Part shown: piece by piece, positions 46,446 to 63,600 of the stretch
How the letters are laid out: every line of letters begins with the position of its first letter
How positions within the stretch are numbered: the first letter of the stretch is position 1
Assembly: GCA_963402885.1 (NCBI GenBank)
Contig: OY727100.1
Span: 1 to 64,000 of the forward strand
Direction: 5' to 3'
From: Antedon bifida
Lineage: Eukaryota; Echinodermata; Crinoidea; Comatulida; Antedonidae
Length of the DNA stretch: 64,000 nt
The notes under the pieces: generated by a model
The model's input: the letters and a program-made list of their open reading frames with translations, nothing else
Database searches by the model: none
Told to the model about the DNA's origin: nothing
Position numbers and translations under genes: made by a program

Positions 46446-49400
46446 TCAAAATACATAGTCAGCATCAGCCATATCTATGGCCCATGAAAATTTTGTTCGT
46501 TGTGTTTTGTTGTACACTTTTTCTAGTGGAACTTCCCATTTCTTGCACCTTTAAAGAACAAAATAAAAATACAGTTTTAAACCTATACCTTACAACATGC
46601 GTTATTAAAAAATATAAATAAAAGGTGATAAATCCAAATAATTTACAAACAAAACTAGCATTGACATAGCTACACAGTGTTTGATTTGTGTATAGTTTGT
46701 CAACTAGCATTGACATAGCTACACAGTGTTTGATTTGTGTACAGTTTGGCAACTAGCATTGACATAGCTACAGTGTTTGATTTGTGTATAGTTTGTCAAC
46801 TAGCATTGACATAGCTACACAGTGTTTGATTTGTGTATAGTTTGTCAACTAGCATTGACATAGCTACAGTGTTTGATTTGTGTATAGTTTGTCAACTAGC
46901 ATTGACATAGCTACACAGTGTTTGATTTGTGTATAGTTTGGCAACTAGCATTGACATAGCTACACAGTGTTTGATTTGTGTATAGTTTGGCAACTAGCAT
47001 TGACATAGCTACACAGTGTTTGATTTGTGTATAGTTTGTCAACTAGCATTGACATAGCTACACAGTGTTTGATTTGTGTATAGTTTGTCAACTAGCATTG
47101 ACATAGCTACACAGTGTTTGATTTGTGTATAGTTTGGCAACTAGCATTGACATAGCTACACAGTGTTTGATTTGTGTATAGTTTGTCAACTAGCATTGAC
47201 ATAGCTACACAGTGTTTGATTTGTGTATAGTTTGTCAACTAGCATTGACATAGCTACACAGTGTTTGATTTGTGTATAGTTTGTCAACTAGCATTGACAT
47301 AGCTACACAGTGTTTGATTTGTGTACAGTTTGGCAACTAGCATTGACATAGCTACAGTGTTTGATTTGTGTATAGTTTGTCAACTAGCATTGACATAGCT
47401 ACACAGTGTTTGATTTGTGTATAGTTTGGCAACTAGCATTGACATAGCTACACAGTGTTTGATTTGTGTACAGTTTGGCAACTAGCATTGACATAGCTAC
47501 AGTGTTTGATTTGTGTATAGTTTGTCAACTAGCATTGACATAGCTACAGTGTTTGATTTGTGTATAGTTTGGCAACTTACCAAGCAACAGAAATTCTTGG
47601 ATCTAAATAGTTCAGTTTGGAAGTTCCAAGGGCAATTTCCTTGTTTTCTTCTTTGTCAGTAGCAGATACTTCCAATTTTGTCAGTTGTTCGTCCAGTCTT
47701 TCAACTTGTTTTTTCTTTTTTTCCAATGCTCTAGATATCATGAAATAGAATTTATTTCGCATTACCACACAATACCTACTATATTTCCAATATTCTATAG
47801 ACAACTATGTTGTATGATCACTGTAAGCCTGAAATTAATTGCCTTTGCTGGTTTTCTTTCTCATTAGGGCCATTTTAAATTAGAATGCTTTTTGTTCAGC
47901 TACTGCTATATAAATATACATTAGTATATATACTAGTAGTACTATACACATTATAAATATACATTAGTATATATACTAGTAGTACTATACACATTATAAA
48001 TATACATTAGTATATATACTAGTAGTACTATACACATTATAAATATACATTAGTATATATACTAGTAGTACTATACACATTATAAATATACATTAGTATA
48101 TATACTAGTAGTACTATACACATTATAAATATACATTAGTATATATACTAGTAGTACTATACACATTACGACTAAAGAGAATGATTAAATGTTTTAACCT
48201 ACATTTTTAGCTTGTCATTTCTACTGTTTTTGTACTCTACTTTCATGGCTTTATACTCTTTCTTCACTTTCTTGACATCATCTTTCTTCTTTTTGATCTT
48301 TTCTTGCAAGTTTGTCATAGATTTTTCAAACGTTTTCGGCACAGCACGTTGATGGTTACATAAGATAGCAACAGCTCGATTTGCCCGATTGTATGACAAG
48401 ACCTTAGCAGCAATGCTGTCATCAGCTTTTATATATTAAAAGAAAGAAAACCGAATAATAATGGTGTCAAAAGTCTTGTGTGCAAATGTAGCCTATATAT
48501 TATGGGGTAGTATTATACTCGAGCATGGGATTATACTTGGTCATACAAGGTAGTATTTTTTAATTAATTGGGGTTCGATCCATCCATATTGTTGAGCACA
48601 CTGATTAATATAAAAATATTAAATTATAAAGTATTTTTGTCTATTTAAAGATGGTCGGCAGCATGGTAGTGGTGGTGGTCAGATATGTTGAGTTGTGGTG
48701 GAATATTGTATGTATGTCAACATCTATGTCTTATAAAGAACAAAGCCTGTCTTCAATGAAGCACTTTGTAATTTTACACAAACAGCTTATGAAGAGTGGG
48801 TTACTTACGATTTGTAAGCTCATCGAGCTGATTCTGCAGGGTAAATGAAGCGTTAAATGTACGGAAAACCTTAGCGGTAAGGCCTTCCATTAGTTCTTGA
48901 AGGTAACGGTTTAGAATAGTAGTGTTTAGTCGATCAAACAGGTCATCTCCTGGTTGCTTGTTATCCATAAATAATTTCAAGTTTTTGAATGCCTAAAAAT
49001 TCATGAATTAGTTTAGTATTTCATGCTGTTTAAAAAATATAGCAATATATATGTAACAATATCCAATCCTTAATTGTATCTATGCTTCCATCATATAAGG
49101 TAATAACAAACATAATAATAATATCCAATCCTTAATTGTATCTATGCTTCCATCATATAAGGTAATAACAAACATAATAATAATATCCAATCCTTAATTG
49201 TATCTATGCTTCCATCATATAAGGTAATAACAAACATAATAAGAATATCCAATCCTTAATTGTATCTATGCTTCCATCATATAAGGTAATAACAAACATA
49301 ATAATAATATTCAATCCTTAATTGTATCTATGCTTCCATCATATAAGGTAATAACAAACATAATTTAATAATATCCAATCCTTAATTGTATCTATGCTTC

Positions 49401-60670: not shown

Positions 60671-63600
60671 TCACAGACCAAATGAAGACGGAGTTTTTTT
60701 TCTTTGTGGTGTACCAACACCTTTTCTTCCTGGTGTAGATATTTGCATTCTGGAAAAGTAGAAATATTATAAACTTTTTTAGCCACATGGACGAAGTAAT
60801 ATACCTTTATGATGCATTTTAAGAACAAGCCACAAAAACAATCACTAAATGATTTATAATACTAAATTCTGAAAATAATAACATGTAGACTTAGGCCCTG
60901 CCGCACTGCCATTATGGTTGATAGAATTTCGTATCTTAAAATAAATTACCGTTTAATGGAAGACTTCCTCTGAAATTCTTCTTCTTCTTTTCGTGTCTTA
61001 ATCTCTTCTGAAGCAGCTGCCATTTGATCTTCCATATCTACTAAATTTTCCTTGGCTTCTTTACGATTCTCAGATCGTGATTTGCCTGCTTCCTTAACGC
61101 TGTAGAACATTGGACCCAATTCTGCTAACCAATGTCCATCTACAGATGTCACACACTGCATGTATTCCTACAATAATAACCACATGAATCAGTATCAGCA
61201 TGCAACCTAACATTTATTAATAATGAAATATATATATATTACGATAAAATAATGAAGAAATCATATTGTTGGGGGTATCTATAAAAAGAACACTTTCTTT
61301 TCAAGAAAAGGATATGGAGGAATTAAATGATTTCCCATTGTAGAAAACACCGATAAAGAAACACTCTAGTGCGGACACATCCTATACAGACAATTCCCTT
61401 CTTAAGCAGACAGCATGTAGTAATCAGACAATGCTGCATATTATATAATTAACACCATTATTACATAGACTAAATTCTACAATCAATCTTACAGAATAAC
61501 CATTTACCTTTGATGTCATGACCAATTCATGATAGACGATGTAATCAGGAGTATATCCCATTCCAAATAAAGCACTTGTTGGGTGTAAATGACATGGCAT
61601 ACCAGTTCGAACATTGGCATACTCTCCAATTCCCTTTAAACAAACAATATTTAATTTATACTCGCTTCACTTGTTGGAAGAAAAACATTTGATTTCACCA
61701 TGCAAACCTTCAAACAATATTATAATCTATTTTTTACTTGTTTTTTAGTTTTAAACATGTTAAACTTATGTGTTAGAGAAAAGATATTAGTTACATTGTT
61801 GTTTTTTGGAGTTTCTAATTGTGTTATATATTATTTATATTTTATTTTTTTGTTTTGAGGAGCCTATTCACCTCAAGCTTTGCTTTCTTTTAGGCTCCTC
61901 CACTTTATATTTATATAGTTGTAAAGTGAAATAAATAAATGAAATATTATACCTTTAATTTGGCTGCTTGGTGAAAGAATGCCGAACAGATACATTTTCT
62001 AATGATATCCCAGCCAGTACCACATGATATTAAGTCCATATGTTGCTGATCCATGATATCTTTTAACTGTTGTCTTACTTCACGAACTTTACGCATTGCT
62101 TTCACATGTATAAAATGGTCACTACACCAGCCTGATGAATAACTAAAAAAATATTGAAAGATTTAGTTCAACTGCAATACATTTTGAGAAGAAAGGTTTA
62201 TGTAGTTTTAAGTAAAATGAATATGTTTTACAGTACCTGTGTTGCTTCCATTGTTGGTAAACATTTAAGTATGTAAGATGATCACTTTCTGGAACTGCAA
62301 ATTTCTCCCTTGCTTGATCACTATCCTCTTCTCGTCCTTTGGGTCGAAAGAAAATTGAAGGAACTGACAGCATAGAAACTATAATCTAAAAGAAAATATT
62401 ACAATTTAGACATTGTGCCAACTACTGGTGAAATGATTTAAACATTACAAACAAAAAACTTACTAAGGCTTCAGCACTACATTCCATTTGACAAGCTACT
62501 ATAAGCATCTTGGAAAGTGCAGGATCAAGTGGAAATTCAACCATCTGTCTACCAATTTGTGTCAAATTACCAGTGTTATCTAATGCACCAAGAATCCATA
62601 GCTGATACATTGAATTCAACATATTGTCCTGAAAATAACAGCATTGTTAAAATTCAACATATACATAACATGTAAAATGCAATACCATTATAACAAATAC
62701 AGAAAATAGTTAATTTACAGAAAAGTAGATTTACATACTTGTGGTGGAGGGTCCATGAAATGAAATTGTAAAAGATCTTGAACGCCTAACGATTTCAGCA
62801 GCAAAACAACATTTGCTAAATTTGTTCTCTGGATTTCTGGAACAGTTGTTCTTAGGAGTTCCTTTTTATATGCTGTTTCAGTGTAAAGACGATAACACTG
62901 CCTAAAAAGAAAAGAATGCAGTGTAAAGACGATAACTGAACACAAAGAAAAGAATGCAGTTAAGTGTAAAGACAATAACTGAACACAAAGAAAAGAATAC
63001 AGTTAAGTGTAAAGACGAACTGAACACAAAGAAAAGAATACAGTTAAGTGTAAAGACGATAACTGAACACAAAGAAAAGAATACAGTTAAGTGTAAAGAC
63101 GATAACTGAACACAAAGAAAAGAATGAAGTTAAGTGTAAAGACGATAACTGAACACCAAAGAAAAGAATGCAGTTAAGTGTAAAGACGATAACTGAACAC
63201 AAAGAAAAGAATGAAGTTAAGTGTAAAGATGATAACTGAACACCAAAGAAAAGAATGCAGTTAAGTGTAAAGACGATAACTGAACACCAAAGAAAAGAAT
63301 GAAGTTAAGTGTAAAGACGATAACTGAACACAAAGAAAAGAATGAAGTTAAGTGTAAGTGTAAAACATGAGCGAAATTAATTTACCCTGGTCCAGTCCTG
63401 CCAGCTCTTCCAGATCGTTGTCTAGCATTTGCTTGACTGATTGGATATATTTGAAGGGCATCCATACCGATTCTAGGATTATAAACTTTAAGCTTACAAA
63501 ATCCTGAATCAACCACAAACATGATACCATCAACTAAATAAAGGTACACAAATTGTAATAATAAATAAATATACAGGGTGTGGCTTTATTTTGTAGGCTT

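Follow-up and report, generated by a model that had tools for sequence, protein, structure and literature searches.

Intronic minisatellites at splice junctions in the crinoid Antedon bifida: copied splice sites, and positions that resemble random seeding in short introns

Introduction

Why do so many of the minisatellites in a crinoid's introns end at a splice site? The question is raised by the first 64 kb of contig C13 of the Antedon bifida assembly (the contig has 24 Mb, the assembly 315.6 Mb in total), a stretch that we refer to as the window and that carries TMEM231, TOP1 and DHX38, all placed on its minus strand by tblastn. An earlier note on this DNA counted eight sizeable intronic arrays, six of which either cross a splice site or have an end no more than about 35 nt from one. 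It held that arrays placed at random would not touch splice sites so often, and suggested that tandem growth starts at exon-intron junctions, or that introns arise or expand by duplication centered on a junction.

We find that two of those eight arrays, and six of the 23 in a wider sample, duplicate the junction itself. To that extent the earlier note is right, but the counts are close to those of random seeding. We think it likely that small tandem duplications are seeded at random in short introns, expand, and are tolerated since splicing uses the outermost site. The observations underneath are the anatomy of the arrays, the intact decoy sites that they carry, the disrupted reading in those decoy uses that we translated (TOP1, a kinesin and one DHX38 intron), and array positions that match random seeding.

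The intronic arrays of the window

Arrays were found with Tandem Repeats Finder (TRF) and splice junctions by exact string match, with coding frames backed by tblastn. The window has nine intronic arrays; the TOP1 intron numbers are the earlier note's own.

37989..40261, minus strand: TMEM231 intron 2; array 38006-40025, 64 bp x 31.5, 17 nt from the acceptor (TRF, junction strings, tblastn)
40423..41924, minus strand: TMEM231 intron 1; array 40555-40767, 68 bp x 3.1, 132 nt from a splice site (TRF)
41059-41226, minus strand: second array of TMEM231 intron 1, 78 bp x 2.1; the nearer splice site is 636 nt from the TRF edge
46549..47580, minus strand: TOP1 intron 17; array 46653-47577, 49 bp x 19.1, 3 nt from the donor (TRF, tblastn, junction strings)
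47731..48202, minus strand: TOP1 intron 16; array 47909-48168, 43 bp x 6.0, 100%, 34 nt from the donor
48993..49882, minus strand: TOP1 intron 14; array 49054-49870, 62 bp x 13, 12 nt from the donor
50611..52843, minus strand: TOP1 intron 11; array 50688-52864, 59 bp x 37.4, crosses the donor and includes 21 exon nt
55206..55684, minus strand: early TOP1 intron, junctions read by eye; array 55356-55561, 26 bp x 7.9, is 123 nt from one splice site and 150 nt from the other
62902..63385, minus strand: DHX38 intron; array 62920-63357, 43 bp x 10.2, crosses the acceptor

Measured in this way, six of the eight arrays counted before do end no more than about 35 nt from a splice site or cross one, and the two exceptions lie well away from any (132 and 123 nt). 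The distances given before change little: the array of TMEM231 intron 2 is 17 nt from its acceptor rather than 15, and those of TOP1 introns 17, 16 and 14 give 3, 34 and 12 nt where 3, 33 and about 10 had been noted. The ninth array, 41059-41226, was absent from that count.

Extension of the arrays past their TRF edges scored above shuffles for two of them only, the DHX38 array at 62.9 kb and the second array of TMEM231 intron 1 (i1b). The latter becomes about 130 nt longer and is still far from a splice site. The DHX38 array has its TRF edge 18 nt from the acceptor, and by eye an imperfect unit reaches to about 62880. The last bases of TMEM231 intron 2 also resemble a degenerate unit by eye, with an extension score that falls within the shuffles.

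Splice junctions copied into the repeat units

Two of the eight arrays straddle a junction. In TOP1 intron 11, the 59-bp unit combines 19 nt of exon tail (TTATCATCAATTGTAGCAA) with the donor GTATGT and the start of the intron; there are 38 junction copies, the real one included, with GT kept in 38/38 and the exon end TAGCAA joined to GTATGT in 37/38. The unit of the DHX38 array at 62902-63385 runs from a polypyrimidine tract through CAG into the exon start TTATCGTCTTTACACT, and AG is kept in 9/9 junction copies found. The wider sample of 23 intronic arrays (nine in the window, ten in the adjoining 80 kb, C13:64001-144000, and four in kinesin genes, from 28 loci that make up about 95 kb) holds six straddling arrays, to which a seventh, uncounted case can be added. 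Those not listed above are:

C13:69506-69619: second straddling array of DHX38, 37 bp x 3.1, 11 exon nt, at the acceptor
C13:103660-103937: SLC9A8, 136 bp x 2, 125 exon nt, at the acceptor
C13:118701-118964: NAPG, about 11 exon nt, at the acceptor
Contig C10, kinesin locus L054: 70-bp unit, 8.7 copies at the acceptor with 20 exon nt, and a further 2 copies that lie 39 nt from the donor
C13:111696-111798: the uncounted case, two copies, at the donor; the gene is MARVEL-like by eye

In the six counted arrays and in the uncounted one, the repeat unit has both exon and adjoining intron sequence. One of the six boundaries is a donor (TOP1 intron 11) and five are acceptors (two DHX38 introns, SLC9A8, NAPG and kinesin L054). 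GT or AG is intact in 65 of the 66 junction copies of the six arrays, a count that includes the authentic sites for five of them.

The outermost splice sites would be the ones in use, and normal mRNA would still be made, judging from the conserved coding sequence. Translation onward through the decoy donors of TOP1 intron 11 runs into a stop, use of the previous acceptor in kinesin L054 would shift the frame, and the exons around the DHX38 intron at 69.5 kb are joined in frame by the last acceptor only.

Short tandem duplications often have microhomology at their breakpoints. By eye, the breakpoints of one array, the SLC9A8 duplication, show a 6-nt microhomology, TAATAT. As a separate matter, the two 70-bp-unit blocks of the junction-straddling array at L054 (C10:32394300-32401100) are separated by about 4.4 kb of transposon-like sequence, apparently an insertion that split the array.

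Two unlikely alternatives: intron creation and selection

Could arrays of this kind have created the introns in which they are found? A tandem duplication across or inside an exon would supply new splice sites, and the repeats would turn into an intron. There are precedents in a potato RdRp gene (PMC4974935) and in human boundary minisatellites (PMC2812944), and the process has been proposed for amphioxus globins (PMC3087553). For the introns described here we regard it as very improbable. In all six counted straddling cases the other splice site is found 18-350 nt away, outside the array; in none of them do both splice sites come from the duplicated segment, as intron gain by tandem duplication would have it, and 99 of the 119 introns surveyed are without a counted array. 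Because the other splice site lies outside, these arrays make introns longer and do not account for both of the splice sites. The making of new introns by junction duplication, as the earlier note suggested, is not supported in any of the six counted straddling cases.

Alternatively, the arrays could be kept by selection, the stacked splice sites regulating the splicing or the expression of the host gene. The 65 intact junction copies would agree with this, as would the sequence of exon tail and donor in TOP1 intron 11, much of which is invariant over 36 units, and a C. elegans intronic minisatellite is statistically linked to multiple alternative splicing (PMC4039745). Long invariant stretches, however, are also present in non-straddling controls (TMEM231 intron 2, TOP1 intron 17 and the SLC9A8 array at 105 kb), and because the controls show them too, homogenization or youth explains the invariant junction stretches. 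Over eight alignments judged by eye, invariance is no higher in the junction columns than along stretches of the control arrays. We give selection on the decoys hardly any credence.

Placement of the arrays compared with chance

How often should arrays be near a splice site by chance, where near means within 35 nt? The answer depends on the null. In the slide null, the whole array is slid inside its own intron and straddling is forbidden. In the seed null, a single unit is seeded at any position of its own intron, collapsed by cutting the array to one unit, and straddling is allowed. The pooled null is conditioned on 119 introns, those of seven genes and of the first-set kinesin loci, with 22 arrays in 20 introns.

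For the eight arrays of the earlier note, six are near where 4.5 are expected under the slide null (P=0.15) and 5.4 under the seed null. For all 23 arrays, the seed null expects 12.4 near and 8.4 straddling, and we observe 13 (P=0.48 at 35 nt) and six; for its 22 arrays, of which 13 are near and six straddle, the pooled null expects 10.5 (P=0.20) and 6.6. Adding the uncounted case at C13:111696-111798, the 24-array variant gives seven straddling against 9.1 expected and 14 near against 13.4. The expectation that random arrays would seldom touch splice sites is therefore not borne out. Comparison with shuffled positions, which the same note had proposed for the genome as a whole, was run on the 23 arrays and gives no excess where straddling is allowed, and a mild one where it is forbidden.

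Random arrays often touch splice sites because what remains of the intron is short and the units are long. Over all 23, the non-array remainder of the intron has a median of 245 nt and goes down to 18 nt, and the unit period has a median of 49 nt; units of 21-136 nt will often abut or straddle a splice site in collapsed introns. The frequency of straddling duplications is close to the one expected from seeding, and they are neither clearly favored nor strongly purged.

A competing explanation is that tandem growth is attracted to exon-intron junctions, for instance by co-transcriptional R-loops, nucleosome edges or slippage-prone splice-site sequence. Several points lean this way, or otherwise weigh against random seeding. 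Under the slide null, 13 of the 23 arrays are near against 9.3 expected (P=0.036), and eight are within 10 nt against 4.2 (P=0.017); P is 0.043 at 20 nt and 0.10 at 50 nt. The non-straddling arrays taken alone give seven near against 4.9 under the slide null (17 arrays, P=0.16) and seven against 4.1 under the pooled null (16 arrays, P=0.085). Of the 37 inner donors of TOP1 intron 11, 12 would add a multiple of three bases. With only 23 arrays, a moderate attraction to junctions is compatible with the data, and for the straddling arrays the own-intron null is conditioned on the introns in which those arrays are found. All seven annotated genes, like the L054 kinesin, are within about 150 kb of contig ends and are not a fair draw from the genome, and all the evidence is the sequence of a single assembly.

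Attraction is countered by the nulls with straddling, where there is no excess of near arrays; by the straddling arrays, which are themselves not in excess under either of those nulls; and by orientation, which is balanced (12 arrays donor-near, 11 acceptor-near). The slide-null excess over the 23 arrays stems mostly from the straddling ones. A modest attraction of arrays to junctions is possible; as the explanation for their placement, we consider attraction unlikely.

Random seeding is the explanation that we prefer, and its mechanism, its neutrality and the use of the outermost site are what we infer. A small tandem duplication would arise, by slippage or mediated by microhomology, at an essentially random position in a short intron, and the duplicated unit would then expand into a minisatellite. 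Before expansion the introns would have had a length of just a few units, so that many seeds would abut a splice site and about a quarter would straddle one. A straddling seed would copy the exon end and the splice site into every unit, resulting in a "mirage", and the gene would survive if the spliceosome takes the outermost (exon-proximal) site and skips the copies.

If so, a striking proximity of repeats to splice sites can arise from short introns alone, and splicing seems to tolerate junction-straddling duplications, given that they are about as frequent as random seeding predicts. TOP1 intron 11, where 37 decoy donors follow the authentic one, lends itself to a direct test of outermost-site choice, and if the outermost site is reliably used, array-bearing genes are natural experiments in splice-site choice. 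More tentatively, and with rather less confidence, we suggest that junction-straddling minisatellites, present in 6 of the 119 introns surveyed, may be common genome-wide in the echinoderm lineage studied here, that the outermost of up to 38 5′ or 11 3′ near-identical sites may be reliably used, and that arrays may seed one another, for which a core shared by the TOP1 and TMEM231 arrays alone speaks (below).

Sample and counting rules

An array was counted if its TRF score was at least 140, if it was non-coding, and if both splice sites of its intron could be placed. The window's satellites and repeats as far as 33.7 kb were excluded as intergenic or in untranslated regions, as were 42534-42841, 44054-44361, 46199-46278 and 59561-60297. 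No gene was placed for C13:84247-85771, 86730-86967, 107868-108001, 109731-110465 and 132005-132344, nor for L051:39-121. C13:69933-70069 is coding, and C13:116157-116273 was excluded for lying at the end of a coding sequence; it is a 56-bp tandem duplication over that end, in a gene that looks CEBPG-type bZIP-like by eye. The donor was not found for L073 (array 26 nt from the acceptor) and for one array further upstream in L076. TRF scores were below 140 for C13:69336-69432, C13:129814-129904, the 21-bp arrays in L066, L068 and L070, L058:47-116 and minor ones. C13:111696-111798 stays outside the 23 as it was found by looking at splice-like units, and is given as the 24-array variant only.

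Some extents were set by hand: the start of the DHX38 array at 62.9 kb, and the merged extents of NAPG, of CPNE at 76-77 kb and of L049 intron 1. The NAPG array has several overlapping TRF rows and is taken as 72 bp x 3.3. For kinesin L054, the transposon-like stretch between the two blocks was subtracted by hand, as length only.

Several of the intron lengths behind the pooled null have an accuracy of about 10 nt, and one or two of its long introns may contain exons that were missed. Its kinesin part has 39 introns from the first 20 loci, with 3 of 42 intron calls dropped for low score and 11 exon pairs left unplaced; some loci yield no intron. The eight second-set kinesin loci contribute arrays alone.

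A core shared by two arrays

The arrays of TOP1 intron 11 (50688-52864) and TMEM231 intron 2 (38006-40025), about 11 kb apart, have a core of about 35 nt in common, and GACC and GATC variants are present in both. A 30-nt part of the TOP1 intron 11 unit has 65 matches in the genome at no more than three mismatches, all of them inside these two arrays. Probably a copy from one of the two seeded the other. We also considered a dispersed element as the source of the core and set it aside, the 30-nt core being nowhere else in the genome at that threshold; dispersal of the introner type is thus not seen for the one core searched genome-wide, which occurs in two arrays only.

Elsewhere, a 21-bp repeat with similar flanks is found in three kinesin loci (L066:664-713, L068:3320-3406 and L070:2397-2447, the last in gene orientation) and resembles the interior of a small transposon. 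Two similar consecutive copine exons, C13:81225-81310 and C13:81011-81106, are possibly mutually exclusive.

Genomic setting

Positions 1-30400 of the window have telomeric CTAACC repeats, then blocks of 147/295-bp and 181-190-bp satellites with short telomere-like stretches between them (TRF). Between TMEM231 and TOP1, at 42230-44650, we see by eye a large inverted-repeat (foldback-like) element, whose arms carry the mirror arrays 42534-42841 and 44054-44361 (TRF).

Mitochondrial COX1 is found on contig C27 of the assembly. It has AAA at sites that usually hold Asn, ATA at sites that usually hold Ile, and AGA/AGG read as Ser. Read from these codons, the mitochondrial code is that of echinoderms and not that of amphioxus. 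T and A make up 46% and 21% of the COX1 coding strand; in the mitogenome of the crinoid Poliometra prolixa they account for 44.9% and 24.0% (PMC10478607).

Comparison with known systems

Earthworm metallothionein genes have intronic minisatellites and untranscribed exon duplications, none of which is shown, in the part of the account available, to span a junction (PMC12783039). Introner elements (PMC3488318) are also repeated sequences in introns, but they spread over many introns, whereas the one unit core that we searched for is confined to two arrays. In the potato RdRp gene, a tandem duplication crosses an intron-exon boundary, as here, and made a new intron (PMC4974935); that intron lies inside the duplicated region, while in our cases the intron's second splice site is outside the array. 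In human segmental duplications, minisatellites described as variable internal tandem repeats lie at exon-intron boundaries and may in some cases form novel introns (PMC2812944). Both systems involve minisatellite expansions that touch such boundaries; the human ones are discussed as giving novel introns or altered exons in recent paralogs, and ours are inside introns with a second splice site of their own.

The closest likeness is to the amphioxus "mirages", minisatellite-like tandem repeats across exon-intron boundaries described for Adh3, the globins BflGb6 and BflGb9 and troponin C, with a similar case in PGBD5 (PMC3087553, PMC3902484). Their units span the boundary at 5′ or 3′ sites, measure from tens to about 160 bp, and many contain AG/GT signals (PMC3087553, PMC3902484). 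Our arrays have the same features, namely units with exon and intron sequence, GT or AG in the copies, and duplication of both 5′ and 3′ boundaries, and in sequence they match amphioxus mirages. They differ in size, with up to 38 junction copies here versus 3-6 repeat units in amphioxus BflGb6, and in their host, which has an echinoderm-like mitochondrial code. The amphioxus cases come with reverse-transcription PCR and polymorphism data, while ours are known from sequence; the reverse-transcription PCR and Adh3 data suggest that regular splicing is unaffected by mirages (PMC3087553). A search of open-licence papers found no echinoderm case of a boundary-spanning minisatellite. With the arrays described here, boundary-spanning minisatellites are now seen well outside amphioxus.

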